Source of the DNA: Candidatus Acidiferrales bacterium
GTDB taxonomy: Bacteria > Acidobacteriota > Terriglobia > Acidiferrales > UBA7541
Assembly: GCA_030037525.1 (NCBI GenBank)
Contig: JASHRC010000269.1
Span: 1-57,797 of the forward strand
Length of the DNA: 57,797 nt
Direction: 5' to 3'
Positions 1 to 15,530 of the stretch are shown here, piece after piece. Made by a program: the position numbers and the translations under genes. Every line of letters begins with the position of its first letter. Position 1 is the stretch's first letter. The notes below the pieces were generated by a model. That model did not search any database. It was not told the origin of the DNA and saw only the letters and a program-made list of their open reading frames with translations.

Positions 1-107
1 CGCCCTTGAGGCGTTGTCGCAACCCGATTTTGAGGGGGCTGTGCACCAAAACGTGAACCAACCCGCAGCGAGCGAATTAGGTCGTGACGGTAACTTATTG
101 AATTGAT

Positions 108-183
108 TGGTGGACGTGAGGGGATTCGAACCCCTGACCCCCTGCTTGCAAAGCAGGCGCTCTCCCAGCTGAGCTACACGCCC
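108..183 (-). tRNA. tRNA-Ala (anticodon UGC)
   Basis: On the minus strand the sequence folds as a full cloverleaf. The 7-bp acceptor stem starts GGGCGTG and contains the G3:U70 pair that identifies alanine tRNAs. The anticodon stem CCTGC/GCAGG encloses loop TTTGCAA with anticodon TGC. The T arm is GGGGTTCGAATCCCC. Discriminator A73 is followed by a genomically encoded CCA (108-110). A tyrosine integrase remnant lies immediately upstream, so this gene is a likely attachment site. Confidence 0.97.
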
Positions 184-890
184 CTCGTTTCCTTCATCCT
201 GTTGAGCAGTATACCAGTTGCCCGAACTTTTCGATTGCCCCGGCGACGGCGTTTTTCTTGGAACATTTGGAACAACTTCCTCAGGCAACACAAATCCATA
301 GCCCACGCGCCCGGCTTCGGCGAGCCTAGTTGGGAGGTCTTCTTTAAGCGCCGAATACAGTTCACCCATCTCTTTCGGCTTGTGGGCGAGCCAGAACTTC
401 CGCAGGTCTTCTTGGCACCTCTGGGCTGGTGCGCGTAGCCAAGAGTTGCGGAACCGCTTGAAGCTGTGCCATCCCATTCCTGCCTCGTACAGCCCCAGCT
501 TGGCGAGTCTCTGGTCGAGCCAATCTTCAGCGAGGTTAGCATACAGATAAGGAGTGCCGTTCTTCGTCTGCAAGATGAGCCCGGAGCTTCCGGTCACGAA
601 CTTCCGCAAATAGTCGGCGACATTGGGATGCAGGTCGATCTGCCGATACGATGCGTCGGTCTTTAGCTTCTTCTTGATGCGGGGGCGGTCCTTCATTACC
701 TGCTGCTCGACCACGATGGTGCGACCGCCGTTGACAAAGTGCCTCGCTTCGAGAGCCAACGCCTCGCTGATTCGCAAAGGTGAATCCGAGCTCAACATCG
801 TTCGGCACCGCGGCGATGAGCCGGTTCATCCGCTGCATGACCTCGCCGGGCAAACGCCAATGCTGGCCGCGCGCACAACTTCGGGGTTGG
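184..890 (-). pseudogene. Tyrosine recombinase/integrase, N-terminally truncated and frameshifted
   Basis: The catalytic half of a phage-type integrase can be read on the minus strand. From about 775 downward it contains LRISEALALE (box I Arg region), GWHSFKRFRNSWLR (box II His/Arg region) and FWLAHKPKEMGELYS, where the last Tyr is the likely nucleophile. The preceding helix (MQRMNRLIAAVPNDVELGF, about 800-850) is in a different frame, so there is an indel near 775-790. The N-terminal arm-binding and core-binding regions are missing, because the neighbouring oxygenase gene ends at 891. The frame stays open through the tRNA-Ala gene to the window edge. The gene is probably dead, a scar of an element integrated at tRNA-Ala. 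The family call is strong; the exact limits are approximate. Confidence 0.8.
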
Positions 891-1577
891 TCAGCCTTTA
901 TTGCCCAAGGAGCGCGGCGCCCATTCAATGGCCTGGTGGAGAAGCGGGACGGATTTCGCGAAGGCGCTGACGCGGTGGCGGAAGTTTTCCTTGTGTGCGT
1001 ACCATTGCGAGTCGACGTAGCAGAGTTGAACGCTCGTGCGCTTGCCTTTTTGGGGAAGGAAGCCGTGCCAGGAATGATCGCAGACGCGAAACATCAGCAT
1101 CTTGCCGAATTCCGGCGCGAATTCGAAGGCGTAGTCCTCACGATTATTGCTGCGCAGGACGCGCAAGCGGCCACGTTCATAGGGCCAGGACTCGCTGAAA
1201 CCGAGAAGGACGGTGATGATCTTGTGGGGAGAGTCCGGGTGCGCATAGCCTTCGTTGTAATGGCCGGTGGTGTTGCCCATCATGACGATGCACGGTGGGC
1301 GATGGCTGAGGTCGATATCGAATTTCTGCTCGACGAGGCGGCGGAAGCGAGGGCTGAGGAGATCTTGCATGCAGGCGGCAAAGTTAGGTCCGTAGCGCAG
1401 AGCCGCGAGCGCGTAGCTGCCGCGATGGGGAATCACAGGCGCATCCGCCAGCACGTCATTTTTCAAACGGGCGTCGATGGCTTGATCCACGAAGGCGAAG
1501 TCGTAAGGATCGTGATGCAGCTCAGCGGCACGAATGGCTTCCTCGTTCAGCATGGCAAGCGGAGCATCTTCGCGCAT
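891..1577 (-). CDS. Fe(II)/2-oxoglutarate-dependent oxygenase-like protein
   Basis: This 228-residue protein carries the double-stranded beta-helix dioxygenase signature. An HPD triad (H113, D115) follows GHYNEGYA, a distal His lies in CDHSWHGF (H168 or H171), and R180 in GKRTSVQL would bind 2-oxoglutarate. I chose the ATG at 1577 because AAGGAGAGAG lies just upstream; a longer open frame to 1661 has no such site. It lies 58 bp downstream of a second, divergent-sequence oxygenase on the same strand, so the two are probably co-transcribed. The substrate is unknown. Related small-molecule and peptidyl hydroxylases share this fold, so no specific reaction is assigned. Confidence 0.8.
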   Translation of the reverse strand: MREDAPLAMLNEEAIRAAELHHDPYDFAFVDQAIDARLKNDVLADAPVIPHRGSYALAALRYGPNFAACMQDLLSPRFRRLVEQKFDIDLSHRPPCIVMMGNTTGHYNEGYAHPDSPHKIITVLLGFSESWPYERGRLRVLRSNNREDYAFEFAPEFGKMLMFRVCDHSWHGFLPQKGKRTSVQLCYVDSQWYAHKENFRHRVSAFAKSVPLLHQAIEWAPRSLGNKG

Positions 1578-1635
1578 GATCTCTCTCCTTCTTTTTTCCA
1601 GCGTTGCCCGGCGCGGCCAAGCCGGACGGCACACA

Positions 1636-2373
1636 TCAGCCGGCACCAACGCGATAGCCATCGGGGTCTTTGCCGCGAACGCGCCGCCACCACACCTGAA
1701 ACGTAGGCACGTTGACGGTGACGATAAAGAGCTTTCGCATTGTGTTCGGGGGACATTGCAGGGGCCGCACGCCGTGCCAGGAATGCTCGGTACGCTCGAA
1801 AATCAGGCTTTCGTTTCCCCGGGGAACCAAGGAGGCGGCCACATCGAAGTCGTCGAAGTTCGGCGCTGAATGAGCCTTGAAGCGCCCCTTGTCGTCCAGA
1901 ATGAGAATCTGTCCGCCCCACTTCGTGTCCCAGTCGGCTTCGGTATTGAAATAGAAGATGTGCGTGCCGAGCTTGCGCTGCGCATCACAGTGGGGCGAGA
2001 CAGAGCAGCCTTGCCAGGCGTAATACCATTCCAGAGTAAGAATGAACTTCGGGCCGGCCTGCGGGCCAAAGATCCGGTGCAGAAACGTCTGGTAGGCGTC
2101 ACCGTGAATCTCCGCGATGAATTCCTGCCAAGGCTGAGGCAGCTTGAGGTCCGGGAGATAGTGCAGGATGTAGCGGTCATGGCTGGCTTGACCGTAAGCA
2201 CGCTTTTCGCCCACGTGCTTCTGGAATGCGGAGACCTCCGGAAGGGTCTCGCGGAGACGTTCAAAGCCTTGCGGCGCCAATGATCCGGGGAGGCTCAGCC
2301 AGGGGTAGGGTCGCTGGTTCTGGAAGATGTCGTAGGAAATTTTCTCGAGGCATTGCTGGTTCAAGTAGTTCAC
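1636..2373 (-). CDS. Fe(II)/2-oxoglutarate-dependent oxygenase-like protein
   Basis: This 245-residue protein has the motif SPHCDAQ (H128, D130) followed by GTHIFYFN, then EHSWHGVRPL (H197/H200) and R213 in TMRKLFIVTVN. That is a complete 2-His-1-carboxylate iron site with a 2-oxoglutarate Arg. The start is GTG with GAGGTGA about 6 nt upstream. It sits between the RidA-like gene (112 bp upstream) and the other oxygenase (58 bp downstream), all on the minus strand, suggesting one transcript. The two oxygenases share motif layout but little sequence outside it, so they are not a recent duplication. The substrate is unknown. Confidence 0.82.
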   Translation of the reverse strand: MNYLNQQCLEKISYDIFQNQRPYPWLSLPGSLAPQGFERLRETLPEVSAFQKHVGEKRAYGQASHDRYILHYLPDLKLPQPWQEFIAEIHGDAYQTFLHRIFGPQAGPKFILTLEWYYAWQGCSVSPHCDAQRKLGTHIFYFNTEADWDTKWGGQILILDDKGRFKAHSAPNFDDFDVAASLVPRGNESLIFERTEHSWHGVRPLQCPPNTMRKLFIVTVNVPTFQVWWRRVRGKDPDGYRVGAG

Positions 2374-8111: not shown

Positions 8112-8496
8112 GTGATGGTCAATGTGTCGCTGCAGGGGCCTTCACTTTTTATCATCATGTCTTTGTCTATCCTAGTCGCCGGTTCTTCCACACTGCTGTC
8201 CCAGACGCCGCTAACTACTGCTCAGGCCAAGCAAGGCGGAACGATTGTCTACGGACTCGTAGATGGAGCCACGACCCCGGCCATGGCGATGGCGCACACT
8301 CTTCGCACCGTGCAGAATATCTCGCGGCGGGGACAGGGGTTCAGCAACTACCTGCTGGATCAAACCATGGTGCAAAACAATAACGTGGGCGGCACGGGCA
8401 TGGTCGACGGCCGATGCGCCGGTGAAATCCGATCCCCACTGCTACGAATACGTGAACACGCCAAACTACTGGAAGGGAACCGACTATGTTCCCTAA
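8112..8496 (+). pseudogene. Small exported protein of unknown family, probably frameshifted
   Basis: ATG at 8112 opens a frame with a signal-peptide-like N-terminus (hydrophobic FIIMSLSILVAGSSTLL, then TAQAKQGG). Around 8400 the more protein-like reading moves to the +1 frame, ending in CYEYVNTPNYWKGTDYVP and a stop at 8496. The original frame stays open and merges into the downstream caspase gene, making one artificial long frame. The family was not recognised. The split at about 8400 is inferred from amino-acid composition only. Confidence 0.35.
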
Positions 8497-8555
8497 CGGA
8501 CGTCCTGAGGTCGAGGCGGCGGTGTCTCTCCAGCCTGCAAAGGTGGGTGCAGACC

Positions 8556-11090
8556 GTGACGCAAACAGCTAGAAGGCGGATCGCGGCTGGGAGTTGCAGA
8601 CGAATCAAAACAGTTCGCCGCAAGGTCCGTTCAGACTATCCAGGGGCCGCATTTCCTCACCGATTCGCTGAGCTTGCGTCTAGTAAGCACATCAAGTCGG
8701 ACCTAGTCGCGATCGTACTTTTGTTTTGCTTGTTTTCCGGACTTCAAGCCCGCGCGCAGACCAAGCGCGCTCTGCTCGTTGGCATCAACACGTACCAGCC
8801 TGCCGGCACTCAGGCCGAGCATCCTGCCGGCTGCACTTATGGTCGGTGCGAGCTGGGAACTTTCGAGAATCTGGACGGCGCCGTGAACGACGCCCAGGCC
8901 ATGGCTGATCTGCTCACCAGTCCGAAATTCGGTTTCCCCGCCGAAAACGTGGTTTTGCTAACGAACCCGAAGCCGCCGCGTCCCACGCCGGGAGTCGTCA
9001 TTTTGCCGGATGGGGAGACCACGCGCGACGGCATTCTTGCCGCCATGCAGAAGTACCTGGTGGATGAGCCGCAGCAGGGCGACACGGTAGTGTTCTATGA
9101 CGCGAGCCATGGTTCGCTGCGCGTGAACAGCAAAGGCAGCAAGCTCACCGTGCTGATCAACGGCGCCTATGTTCATGCGGACAGCACGCTGGTGCCATCT
9201 GACGCCTACAAGGGCGGTTATGACATTCGCGACCGCGAAATGACGCGCATCTTCAACGCGGCCCTGGACAAGGGAATCCATCTCGCCGTCATTTTGGACA
9301 GTTGCCACAGCGGCGGCATCAGCCGCGGCATCGGCGCGAACTATCGTCAGCGAAGCCTGGCTTTTGATCCGCGCGACATTGCCGAGGGGCCCGACCTGCT
9401 TCCCAATGGCCAGCCGCGGCCCGCCATCACCGAGCGGGCGGACAATCCTGCGATCGTCTTCTCCGCCGCGCAGCAGGACCAGTCGGCCAAGGAAATGCCG
9501 CCTTCGGAGGGAACAAGCGAGCCGCACGGCGCGTTCACTGCCGCTTTGCTCGAAGCTTTGCAGGCTTTGCCCGGAGGCGCTCCCGCTGCTCTCGTATATC
9601 AGCGGGTTCGAGCCGTTCTCGAAGGAGAAGATGTCCCTGACCAGGAACCCGAACTGGATGCCACTGCGATCCGGCGCCAGCAACCTCTGTTCGGAGGAAC
9701 GCCAGGTGACACAGGTGGTATCCGGGCCGCGGCTCTCTCAACCGACGAGGACGGGAATGTCCGGTTGGACATTGGCAGCATCGCGGGAATCGGAATTGGG
9801 AGCGAGTTCAAGAGCGCTGTTCCCGGACCGAACGGCCAGGAAGTTCGCCTGCAGGTCACTGGCCTCGATGGCATCGCGCGCTCGACGGCTATGGTCATCA
9901 GTTCTCCCAAGGTGAAGGTAGCTCCCGGCGAAATCTTCGAGTTGAGCCGTTGGGTTCCAGCGGAATCCGCGCCGCTGCGAATCTGGCACTGGCCTTCCAA
10001 CTTGTCGCAGGACGAGATTCTCGCCGCGGCGGCGGAGATTCGTTCGGCGGGCGTGGTTTTCGTTTCGGATCCAGCCGAAGAGTCTTGGACCCACATGCTG
10101 AGCTGGGACGGCTCGAATTGGACGCTGCAACAGGCGGGGAAAGGGGCTCCGGTCCGGCTGGGACCGAAGCCTGCTGCGAGCGTGCTGAAGGAACACCTTT
10201 CCGCGGGTTCAAAGTTGTGGGTGAATTTTCCTCCATCGCGGGACCTGGCCGCGAAACTGACGCCGAGCGATCCCGGCAGGGCGGTGCAGGCTGCGGGTGA
10301 TCTGGCCGGAGCGCAGTACGCGCTGACGGGTACTTTGACCGCCGACGGACCGGCCTATGCGTGGTTCCACAAGAGTGAGCTATCGGCCGACCCGCGCGTG
10401 CGGAGCACACCGGGGCACAGTCCCGGCTGCTCTTCAACTTCACAATACCCTGTGCGCAGCGACTGGGTGGCGGTCGGCGGCGCGGCCGGCGTGGAGACGG
10501 GCGGGGCCGCGCTGAACAAATTCGTTTCGCTGTTGGCCAAAGTCCACGGCTGGCTCGAACTTGCCGATAGCGGCGCGAACGAATCGGCAGGCGGCTACTA
10601 CTCGCTGGCTCTGGTTCCGGCATCCGGCGGCGCGCCTCTGCCCGCAGGCCAGGCCGTGCACCAGGGCGACCTTCTGAAATTGTCTTTGCAGTCCGATGAA
10701 CGCGTAGTTGAAAAGCGCTGGGTCTACATTCTGGACATTGATTGCCACGGCAAAGGCACGGTGCTGTATCCCGGCAACTACACTGAAAACCAGTTTCCAA
10801 ACGCCGCCGATACCGGCCGCCAATTTCTGCTCCCAGGCGCGCCCACGCTGCGCATCGGTCCGCCTTACGGTGTGGACACACTGATCCTGTTGAGTGCGGT
10901 TCAGCCGCTGCCCGATCCCTACCTACTGAACTTTGAGGGAGCGGCATCGCGCGGCGGGGCGCGGTCGCCGCTCGAAAAACTGCTCGGCCAGACGAGCAGC
11001 GGGACTCGCGGGTTCTCCGGTGAAGTGCCCACCAATTGGGGCATTGAGACGATTTCCATTCGCAGTATGCCAAGGGAAGCAACGCAATGA
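8556..11090 (+). CDS. Exported caspase-family (C14) protease with C-terminal DUF4384-like domain
   Basis: A Sec-type hydrophobic stretch (about 8700-8755, LVAIVLLFCLFSGLQARAQ) precedes a caspase p20-like domain that begins TKRALLVGINTYQ. The catalytic His lies in FYDASHGS (codon at 9108) and the catalytic Cys in ILDSCHSGG (codon at 9303). The long middle region is unassigned. Near the C-terminus, LLKLSLQSDERVVEKRW and YILDIDCHGKGTVLYPG resemble DUF4384, often attached to bacterial caspases. The start is uncertain: the frame is open from 8112, no ATG lies near the signal sequence, and GTG at 8547 or 8556 is the nearest standard start. Downstream genes for a Tat protein and a TPR-CHAT protein follow at 68 and 79 bp. 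Confidence 0.85.
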   Translation: MTQTARRRIAAGSCRRIKTVRRKVRSDYPGAAFPHRFAELASSKHIKSDLVAIVLLFCLFSGLQARAQTKRALLVGINTYQPAGTQAEHPAGCTYGRCELGTFENLDGAVNDAQAMADLLTSPKFGFPAENVVLLTNPKPPRPTPGVVILPDGETTRDGILAAMQKYLVDEPQQGDTVVFYDASHGSLRVNSKGSKLTVLINGAYVHADSTLVPSDAYKGGYDIRDREMTRIFNAALDKGIHLAVILDSCHSGGISRGIGANYRQRSLAFDPRDIAEGPDLLPNGQPRPAITERADNPAIVFSAAQQDQSAKEMPPSEGTSEPHGAFTAALLEALQALPGGAPAALVYQRVRAVLEGEDVPDQEPELDATAIRRQQPLFGGTPGDTGGIRAAALSTDEDGNVRLDIGSIAGIGIGSEFKSAVPGPNGQEVRLQVTGLDGIARSTAMVISSPKVKVAPGEIFELSRWVPAESAPLRIWHWPSNLSQDEILAAAAEIRSAGVVFVSDPAEESWTHMLSWDGSNWTLQQAGKGAPVRLGPKPAASVLKEHLSAGSKLWVNFPPSRDLAAKLTPSDPGRAVQAAGDLAGAQYALTGTLTADGPAYAWFHKSELSADPRVRSTPGHSPGCSSTSQYPVRSDWVAVGGAAGVETGGAALNKFVSLLAKVHGWLELADSGANESAGGYYSLALVPASGGAPLPAGQAVHQGDLLKLSLQSDERVVEKRWVYILDIDCHGKGTVLYPGNYTENQFPNAADTGRQFLLPGAPTLRIGPPYGVDTLILLSAVQPLPDPYLLNFEGAASRGGARSPLEKLLGQTSSGTRGFSGEVPTNWGIETISIRSMPREATQ

Positions 11091-12419: not shown

Positions 12420-15400
12420 ATGGAACACGTAGCCAAGACCTTCGTCCTGTTGTGCCTCATCGCCGGTCTCCTGGCGGCGCCCGCTCCGGCTGGGGCGCAG
12501 TCTCCGTCCGTGCGCGACCAGATCGCTCAACACGAGCAGAATCTAGCAGCCGCGCGGGCGGGCAATCACTCCTACTCCGAAGTCCTGGAACTGAATACCC
12601 TCGGCATTCTGTACCGCAAGAGCGGGCAAATGCAAAAGGCCTTGGAATGCTTGAACCAGGCCCTGCCCCTTGCGGAGAAATCCGGGAACAAGATCGCTCA
12701 GGCAATGGCTCTGGCTACGACGGGCAGGGTGTATACCGACCTCGGCGAGGAAGACAAGGCGCTGGAATTCCTCAACCAGGCGCTACCTCTGTGGCAAACG
12801 CTGGGGCTGCAGGAGGGCGAGGCCAGCGTCCTCGACAGCCTGGGCAGAAACTACAACGTTCTCGGACAGCGTGATGTAGCGCTGAAGTATTTGAACGAAG
12901 CGATGAGAATCTGGCACGAGGTCAACGATCTGCAGAACGCGGGCCTCCCGCTCAGGGAAAAACTCAGATTGTTGCGCGAGGGCCAAGCGCACCGTGTGAG
13001 AGGACTGAATGAGTCGCCAGCAAACCTGAGGGAGCTGCTTGGCAAGGCGGGCGAGGCGAACACACTGGACAATCTGGGAAGAACGTATTCGGATATGGGC
13101 GAGCTGCGCGAGGCTCTCGAGTATTTCAACAAGGCGCTGCCGATCTGGCGCAATGCCAATGAAGACGGCGGCGAGGCGCTCACGCTGACCAACATGGGCT
13201 TGGTTTATGACGGCCTGGGGCAGTTTCAAAATTCGCTGAAATTCTACAATCAAGCCCTCGAGATCTGGCGGCGAATTGGCAATCGGCAAGGCGAAGCAAC
13301 GACCTTGGCCGCCCTGGGCCGGATGTACCGCGATCTGGGGCAACATCAAAGTGCTATGGATTACTACCTTCAGGCGCTGCCCATCTGGCGGGACGTTGGA
13401 AACAGACGCGGAGAAGCGGTGGAACTTAGCGATATCGGCCGTGCCTATGCGGATCTGGGGCAGCCTCGCAAAGCGCTGGAGTATTGCGAGCAAGCCCTGC
13501 CGATCTTTCGGGAGACCGGCAGCCTCCGCGGCGAGGCGATGACGGTGAACAATATGGGCCGCGATCATTACGATCTGGGAGAAGCGGAAACCGCGCTGGC
13601 CCTCAACATCCAAGCGCTGGGCCTGTGGCGCCAGGTGAAGGATCGGCGCGGCGAAGCACTGGCGCTGATGACCATCGGCTGGGCCTATGGGGCATTGGAG
13701 GACAAGGAAAAGTCGCTGGCGGCGACGCTCGCCGCGCTGTCCCTTACCAAGGCATCGGGTGATACCGAGATTGAAGGCGCAATCGAGACAGCCCTGATGA
13801 TGGGGTTTCGCAAAGATAACCACCTGGAAGAAGCCATCTTCTTCGGCCTCGAAGCAGTGAACGCCTACCAGAAAATCCGAAAAAATATTTCCGAGCTCGA
13901 CAAGGACCTGCAAGCCGGATTTGCGCAGTCCAAGTCGGGAACTTACCGCGCCTTGGCGGAACTGCTGGTCGAGACCGGGCGGCTGGGTGAGGCCGAACAG
14001 ATTCTCGACATGCTCAAAGAACAAGAACTGAAAGACATTATTCCCGGAGATGCGCCGGATAGCACGGGCAAAATCCAGCCGCTGAAGTTTACCGCTGCGC
14101 AGCTAAAGGTAGAGAGCGCGATGCCGGCCCTGGAAAAGCAAGCCGTGAATCTTATCGAACTGAGCGTACAAGCGGCCGCTCTGCAATCAAAGGCTTCCCC
14201 TGCGGCCGACGACGAGGCTCAACTCAAAGGTTTGAATGCGACGATCGAGCAGGAGAGGTCGAAGATGCTGGCCCTGTTCACCGACACGATAGACGCGGAG
14301 CTGGAACAAAAGCCCGGAACGGATGAAACGCAGGCAGACGCGGCTCAAAGCTACCTGCAAAGCACGCTGACCAAACTGGGGCCGCGCGTGATGGGGATTC
14401 GCCTCCTGCTCGGCCAGGATCACGCCTATGCGATCGTAGTGACGCCCGACAAACGAAAGAAGTTTGTGTTGCAAGCCACGCCTGCGGAATTGCGTGAAAA
14501 AATCTTTGCAGCGCTGCAGGCTCTGAGACAGCAAACCGCCGATCCCAAACCGCAGTTGGCGCAACTCTATTCCATGGTTGTCGTTCCTCTCGAAGGAGCG
14601 TTGAAAAGCCTGGAAATGCTTCCCGCGACCGAGGGTCGTGCGCCGACCTTGCTTTGGTCTCTCGACGATGCGCTCCGTTACCTTCCGATGGCAGCCCTCT
14701 ACGATGGTCAGCGCTTCCTGGTTGAACGGTTCAACAACGTGCTCTTCACGCCGGAAAGTTACGGTCATATGACCGATTTGCCGCTCCTGAACGGCCCCAA
14801 ACCCAGCGCACTCGCCGCGGGCCTGTCCAAAGGCTATGGCGGACTATCAGCCCTGCCTGGCGTGCCGGCGGAGCTGGATTCGGTGGCCCACGATCCGACG
14901 TTGCCGGAATCGCATGGGCCCATGGACGGAACGGTCCTTTCCAATGACCGGTTCACGCTGGCTGCTCTGCAAAGCGAACTCGGCGGCCAAGGCTTCTCCG
15001 TCGTCCATATTGCCAGCCATTTCGTCGTGGAAACGGGCAACGGCCAGCAGCCGTTTTTGATGCTGGGCGGGAAAGACGCCGGAGAGCAGGACGGATATGA
15101 ATGGAACCTGTCCGATATGGAGAATTCTACGATTACGTTTCACGGAACGCGCCTGCTGACGCTATCGGCTTGCAGCACGGGGAAAGACTACCAATCCAGA
15201 AACGGTTTGGAGATGGACAGCCTGGGGATGATCGCCCAGCAAAAGGATGCTGAAGCGGTGCTGGCCACGCTTTGGGACGTGAATGATGCCAGCACGAGCC
15301 AGTTCATGAGAGACTTCTACAAAAGGTGGGTCAACAATCCTGCTGAAGGCAAAGCGGAGGCGCTGCGCCAGGTGCAACTCAGCTTCCTGCGCAGGAGCTC

Positions 15401-15530
15401 TGAGCCTTCGAATGCAGCTGAAAGCCGCGGAGTCGAAGCCGTACAGGACTTGCCGCCAACCGCACGCGCCGCGGGCTACTCTCACCCGTTCTACTGGGCG
15501 CCCTTCGTCCTGATCGGAAATTTTCAGTAG
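12420..15530 (+). CDS. Exported TPR-CHAT protein (caspase HetF-associated protease)
   Basis: The 1,036-residue protein begins with a Sec signal (FVLLCLIAGLLAAPAPAGAQ). About nine 40-residue tetratricopeptide repeats follow (52-448; consensus GEA..L..LG..Y..LGQ...AL.Y..QALPIWR..GN) and then a helical linker. The C-terminal CHAT domain is at about 800-1036. The catalytic His is H867 in VVHIASHF and the catalytic Cys is C918 in LTLSACSTG, with AEAVLATLWDVND following as in other CHAT proteins. Characterised CHAT proteases such as the Craspase TPR-CHAT act in the cytoplasm, whereas this one should be exported. It is the third gene of a same-strand set with a C14 caspase and a Tat protein. Confidence 0.92.
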   Translation: MEHVAKTFVLLCLIAGLLAAPAPAGAQSPSVRDQIAQHEQNLAAARAGNHSYSEVLELNTLGILYRKSGQMQKALECLNQALPLAEKSGNKIAQAMALATTGRVYTDLGEEDKALEFLNQALPLWQTLGLQEGEASVLDSLGRNYNVLGQRDVALKYLNEAMRIWHEVNDLQNAGLPLREKLRLLREGQAHRVRGLNESPANLRELLGKAGEANTLDNLGRTYSDMGELREALEYFNKALPIWRNANEDGGEALTLTNMGLVYDGLGQFQNSLKFYNQALEIWRRIGNRQGEATTLAALGRMYRDLGQHQSAMDYYLQALPIWRDVGNRRGEAVELSDIGRAYADLGQPRKALEYCEQALPIFRETGSLRGEAMTVNNMGRDHYDLGEAETALALNIQALGLWRQVKDRRGEALALMTIGWAYGALEDKEKSLAATLAALSLTKASGDTEIEGAIETALMMGFRKDNHLEEAIFFGLEAVNAYQKIRKNISELDKDLQAGFAQSKSGTYRALAELLVETGRLGEAEQILDMLKEQELKDIIPGDAPDSTGKIQPLKFTAAQLKVESAMPALEKQAVNLIELSVQAAALQSKASPAADDEAQLKGLNATIEQERSKMLALFTDTIDAELEQKPGTDETQADAAQSYLQSTLTKLGPRVMGIRLLLGQDHAYAIVVTPDKRKKFVLQATPAELREKIFAALQALRQQTADPKPQLAQLYSMVVVPLEGALKSLEMLPATEGRAPTLLWSLDDALRYLPMAALYDGQRFLVERFNNVLFTPESYGHMTDLPLLNGPKPSALAAGLSKGYGGLSALPGVPAELDSVAHDPTLPESHGPMDGTVLSNDRFTLAALQSELGGQGFSVVHIASHFVVETGNGQQPFLMLGGKDAGEQDGYEWNLSDMENSTITFHGTRLLTLSACSTGKDYQSRNGLEMDSLGMIAQQKDAEAVLATLWDVNDASTSQFMRDFYKRWVNNPAEGKAEALRQVQLSFLRRSSEPSNAAESRGVEAVQDLPPTARAAGYSHPFYWAPFVLIGNFQ
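12573..13763 (+). repeat. Nine tandem 120-bp TPR-coding repeats
   Basis: Repeats of 40 codons encode the TPR solenoid of the CHAT protein. A 36-codon insertion after the third unit (about 12940-13050) breaks the period. Units 4 to 8 are the most alike and share QALPIWR-type cores. Confidence 0.8.

Follow-up and report, generated by a model that had tools for sequence, protein, structure and literature searches.

The window, that is, the whole 57.8-kb stretch of DNA analysed, starts at the first base of contig C79 (G000:C79:1) of a 4.2-Mb assembly in 286 contigs. An intact tRNA-Ala(TGC) gene is encoded on the minus strand at 108..183 (ARAGORN; Rfam RF00005, 71.2 bits) and, as the contig ends at base 1, only 107 bp of its 3' flank are present. 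This is the single Ala(TGC) copy found in the assembly, which is 93% complete and may lack rRNA-linked tRNAs; the other alanine tRNAs found are CGC and GGC, and the window holds no second tRNA copy or half. On the same strand, with its 3' end toward the tRNA 5' end, lies the catalytic-domain remnant of a tyrosine integrase (256..798) that lacks its N-terminal half. The remnant matches PHROG_1 (E 5.7e-9) and is 64% identical over 181 aa (window 798-256, E 1e-73) to the intact integrase of locus L102, which bears out the catalytic-domain integrase that an earlier note on this DNA had placed beside tRNA-Ala. Identity to the integrase of L104 reaches 80% over 135 alignment columns. The catalytic R, K, H, H and Y positions are all present, the second Arg (HxxR) being Lys, likewise in the intact L102 and L103 enzymes. 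Intact family members match Pfam PF00589, with L102 just below its cut-off, and the window fragment itself gave no Pfam integrase match. Searches of phage records, and of genome contigs with the window protein alone, returned no matches.

Integrase similarity ends at 798 and was found in no frame upstream of that position. The earlier note had described an N-terminus replaced by the oxygenase gene and a body frameshifted near 780; the loss is real, while the supposed frameshift reads as truncation near 798. The neighbouring 2OG-Fe(II) oxygenase gene (891..1661, minus strand; Pfam PF13640, E 6.8e-7), whose 3' end abuts the truncated integrase, ends at 891. Within the integrase C-terminus, the direct repeat GTTCCAAATGTTCCAAG (258..274, minus strand) codes for a VPNVP motif and may be an arm-type integrase site. 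Similar tandem repeats (TTGGACGGAAGTTGGACGG) occur in the P' arms of L103, L105 and L141, possibly also as arm-type sites.

The usual account of integrases has them replace the 3' part of the target tRNA gene, the host keeping its own promoter. Here the integrase lies at the tRNA 5' end and not at the usual 3' end, which is the informative point of the locus and one that the earlier note passed over. The anticodon stem-loop CCTGCTTTGCAAGCAGG (141..157, minus strand) is nearly self-complementary and is the probable crossover core (att), as tRNA halves in relatives break there. The tRNA 5' half (146..183, minus strand) would then have been supplied by the element, judging from relatives in which an integrase is followed by a 5' half alone and then by the P' arm. 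Alignment of integrase tails from L102, L104, L105 and L109 identifies the segment between the two genes (184..255, minus strand) as what was once the tail and stop-codon region of the integrase gene and is now the upstream segment and putative promoter of the tRNA. It contains a -10-like box, TATACT (208..213, minus strand), recognized by its match to the consensus and starting 30 bp before the tRNA.

Protein searches of the genus and of 399 genomes from the class supplied homologues, whose surroundings we then compared. At loci with a full tRNA, the 3' end of the integrase gene lies beside the 3' end of an oppositely oriented tRNA in 32 cases and beside the 5' end of a tRNA on the same strand in 15, including the window; two more integrases, at least 600 bp from a tRNA, show neither geometry. 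When half tRNAs are counted as well, 65 of 72 integrase ends carry a tRNA half, which is an antisense 3' half (3'-type, the usual plan) in 42 and a sense 5' half (5'-type) in 23, namely the window and 22 relatives. The distance from the integrase stop to the middle of the anticodon has its mode at 66-68 bp in both types alike, and a second group at about 55-60 bp is shorter by about one helical turn. The 5'-type joint recurs at tRNA-Ala(TGC) in L102, L109 and L117 and also at Arg, Asn, Gln and Val tRNAs. This bears on the possibility that a chance deletion or rearrangement brought an integrase fragment from elsewhere up to the tRNA, so that its position is meaningless. The truncated gene and the lack of a far att end would suit such an event, but the same joint, spacing and orientation at all these tRNAs largely refute it, and we regard it as highly unlikely.

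Two tRNAs, Asn in L137 and Val in L156, have an integrase on both sides. The window's own genome holds a tRNA-Asn with an adjoining 5'-type integrase remnant on G000:C188 (L073:8424-8708 and L073:10972-11403); about 2.4 kb from it, a tRNA-Asn 3' half follows an integrase remnant of the 3'-type. In the same genome, a lone tRNA-Ala-like 3' half close to a contig end (L004:219-256, G000:C78) is a sign of another displaced half. Nearly all named relatives in public assemblies come from acidobacterial metagenome genomes, the closest being soil bins named 'Acidobacteria bacterium isolate gp2'. One 5'-type integrase with tRNA-Ala, L197, is on a contig binned as Verrucomicrobia, pointing to cross-phylum transfer or misbinning. 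Among viral contigs, the matches with a well-placed tRNA half beside the integrase (L253, L256 and L257) are all 3'-type, and relatives in large phages show no tRNA half beside the integrase.

The earlier note had also drawn attention to an integrase frame running open through the tRNA to the window edge. Such a frame exists: 266 codons of the minus frame 798..1 lack a stop, of which about 181 are integrase and the other 85 comprise tail, tRNA and flank. With the tRNA kept and the flanks shuffled, however, these 85 codons stay open by chance with P ~0.07, and a second minus frame is likewise open from the tRNA to the window edge. Integrases whose gene spans attP, those of SSV and Mx8, are known (PMC4383910), and the long open frame could be taken to mean that this integrase, too, truly runs through its tRNA. 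Yet the stop lies 30-34 bp before the tRNA in most relatives and 21-60 bp before it in all other 5'-type relatives examined, and the window gene is itself truncated, the stop that relatives have near the tail being lost according to the tail alignment. The relatives' stops and the chance openness thus rule out an integrase frame extending through the tRNA, a reading to which we assign a negligible likelihood; the open frame is not a feature of the locus.

How a 5'-type integrase comes to stand before its tRNA can be followed in relatives. In L103, L105 and L154 the integrase gene is followed by a gap of about 33 bp and a tRNA-Ala 5' half that breaks off in the anticodon loop, beyond which comes an arm specific to the element (TAAGTGCCGCATCTGGTGTCGCTTAC...); the L104 sequence ends just inside this arm. 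Since the same arm also follows antisense tRNA-Pro 3' halves in L141 and L146, one attP plan is common to 5'- and 3'-types. Whole 5'-type islands are present in G216. On contig C11, the native promoter and tRNA-Arg(TCT) 5' half lie at 155813-155851, the integrase and full tRNA lie at 161244, and the two halves are identical in 39 of 39 positions; contig C27 has the same layout at tRNA-Arg(ACG), with halves identical in 40 of 40. At the empty sites of G260, G099 and G035, the native upstream region found at the far end in G216 is contiguous with an uninterrupted tRNA. In these islands, the native promoter and 5' half are displaced to the far end, and the integrase tail and a new 5' half rebuild the tRNA. 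The 5.5-kb island on C11 (G216:C11:155813-161320; L171:15813-20000 and L172:1-1320) carries an AbiEi antitoxin and AbiEii toxin, a defence-type cargo.

A comparable arrangement occurs in L104, the nearest relative of the window, where one 5' half follows a -10-like box of its own (TTAGAAT, at 1703); about 3 kb further on (about 4685), an integrase remnant with TATAAT precedes a second 5' half; a PIN-domain gene adjoins this remnant. Relatives of the same geometry as the window are thus whole or partial islands with displaced tRNA halves, and the claim of an old integration site stands. The window has the remnant, the orientation and the box position, and the relatives show the like arrangement with displaced halves; that the window's own 5' half is element-derived is what these relatives suggest.

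We consider it highly probable that the locus is the decayed integrase-proximal end of an element integrated at the anticodon loop of tRNA-Ala(TGC), with the 5' half replaced. Directly after its integrase gene, the element would have carried a promoter together with a duplicate of the tRNA 5' half. On integration, the element's 5' half would have been joined to the 3' half of the host gene, while the native promoter and 5' half moved to the element's other end. Subsequent decay would have removed the N-terminal half and the stop codon of the integrase gene; the far end would have been lost or would be absent from the assembly. The last 70-odd bases of the integrase tail would have been retained because they now drive the tRNA.

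Allowing up to 10 mismatches over 38 nt for a displaced tRNA 5' half and up to 7 mismatches for a known far-end (P') arm, we found neither in the 57.8-kb window; none was found elsewhere in the assembly. The bounds of an island can therefore not be drawn, and we class the window locus as a remnant rather than an island. The earlier note had looked instead to an ordinary island at the tRNA 3' end, with cargo from 0.9 to 8 kb and perhaps to 15.5 kb, and had proposed to check for a repeat of the tRNA 3' end further downstream. No such repeat exists in the window, and it would concern the wrong half, as this type of element displaces the 5' half. Speaking for such an island, 19 genomes of the same genus lack oxygenase B except for weak matches. 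Against it, a 3'-type element would not leave its integrase at the 5' end of the tRNA, where this one lies; neither a 3'-half nor a 5'-half repeat lies downstream, and GC is flat, with no composition shift. This reading is very unlikely. Cargo status for the genes at 0.9-8 kb is possible but unproven, the absence of oxygenase B from those 19 genomes, weak matches apart, being set against flat GC and the lack of an att site, and nothing favours the extension to 15.5 kb. More distant relatives have the pair of oxygenase B and RidA at sites away from tRNA-Ala, with no tRNA nearby. Further into the window lie genes for a caspase-fold (Peptidase_C14) protein (8112-11090) and a TPR-CHAT protein (12420-15530). 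In the comparison at tRNA-Ala that had also been proposed, G016 and G023, whose tRNA-Ala is 96% identical, share no detectable flank with the window, and no empty site for this locus was found.

Where the 5' half is replaced, the tRNA seems to gain its new promoter from the end of the integrase gene, as judged from promoter boxes that are consensus matches. A -10-like hexamer 20-36 bp before the tRNA edge is present in 13 of 22 5'-type sequences vs 0 of 42 3'-type sequences (Fisher p 4e-8; 14% and 9% in shuffles), counting distinct sequences and allowing at most one mismatch; some loci are close relatives, so these p-values are optimistic. In L104 the box is TATAAT, 28 bp before the tRNA, compared with TATACT in the window; the 5'-type relatives L119, L156 and L160 have no good -10-like box. 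On this reading, the window promoter would be in use and would have been kept by selection.

On a tree of 58 integrase sequences, the 5'/3' label needs 7 changes, at least 6 of them forced by well-supported branches, and 5'-type integrases as a single clade are rejected (p-AU 5.6e-8). The window integrase groups with 5'-type tRNA-Ala relatives, and its 11-member clade includes L057, from the same genus, which is 3'-type at tRNA-Ala(TGC). The near-palindromic anticodon stem-loop makes such a flip of halves plausible. We think it probable that the family has a fixed attP plan: the integrase stop lies about 67 bp from an anticodon core that is nearly palindromic, and the half on the integrase side is exchangeable; lineages would flip between 3' and 5' halves, and the integrase tail would be kept as a host-tRNA promoter after the death of the element.

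Integration with the 5' half is known and rare. In the Islander survey, 159 of 3919 islands (about 4%) have a 5' tDNA fragment; as here, the element restores the 5' half and displaces the native one, and many att sites are anticodon-centred (PMC4383910). By comparison, 23 of 65 ends are of this kind in the one half-switching family described here, a contrast that is indicative only as the methods differ. Zhao and Williams 2002 is cited in PMC6563490 among 5'-distal cases. The pTN3-like archaeal integrases resemble the 5'-type in using the tRNA 5' half as attB and in leaving the rebuilt tRNA cut off from its own promoter and expressed from that of the integrase, an arrangement called 'seldomly encountered in bacteria' (PMC8371274; PMC5495485). 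Their hosts are archaea, whereas the present family is bacterial. In pTN3, moreover, attP lies inside the integrase gene, which is split on integration, while here the gene is left intact, its end lying about 67 bp short of the anticodon. An attP inside the integrase, as in pTN3 or SSV, is ruled out for this family by the relatives' integrases, which stop before the tRNA half. The classical anticodon-loop integrases, as PMC8371274 summarizes them from Williams 2002, also have their crossover in the symmetric anticodon stem-loop, at various tRNAs, and follow the 3'-half plan to which most members of the present family keep; in contrast to that account, part of the family uses the opposite half at the same integrase-to-core spacing. 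We found no account of a family that switches between the two halves in the literature searched, which includes few subscription papers.

Some seven switches with the geometry kept would mean that polarity is set by the tRNA half that sits beside the symmetric core and not by the integrase fold. Island finders that expect the integrase at the tRNA 3' end will misread 5'-type sites. On this evidence, a mobile element could put a host tRNA under its own transcriptional control, with its promoter staying behind after the element decays. If this is true, the only Ala(TGC) tRNA found in the window's genome would depend on a promoter made from the tail of an integrase gene.
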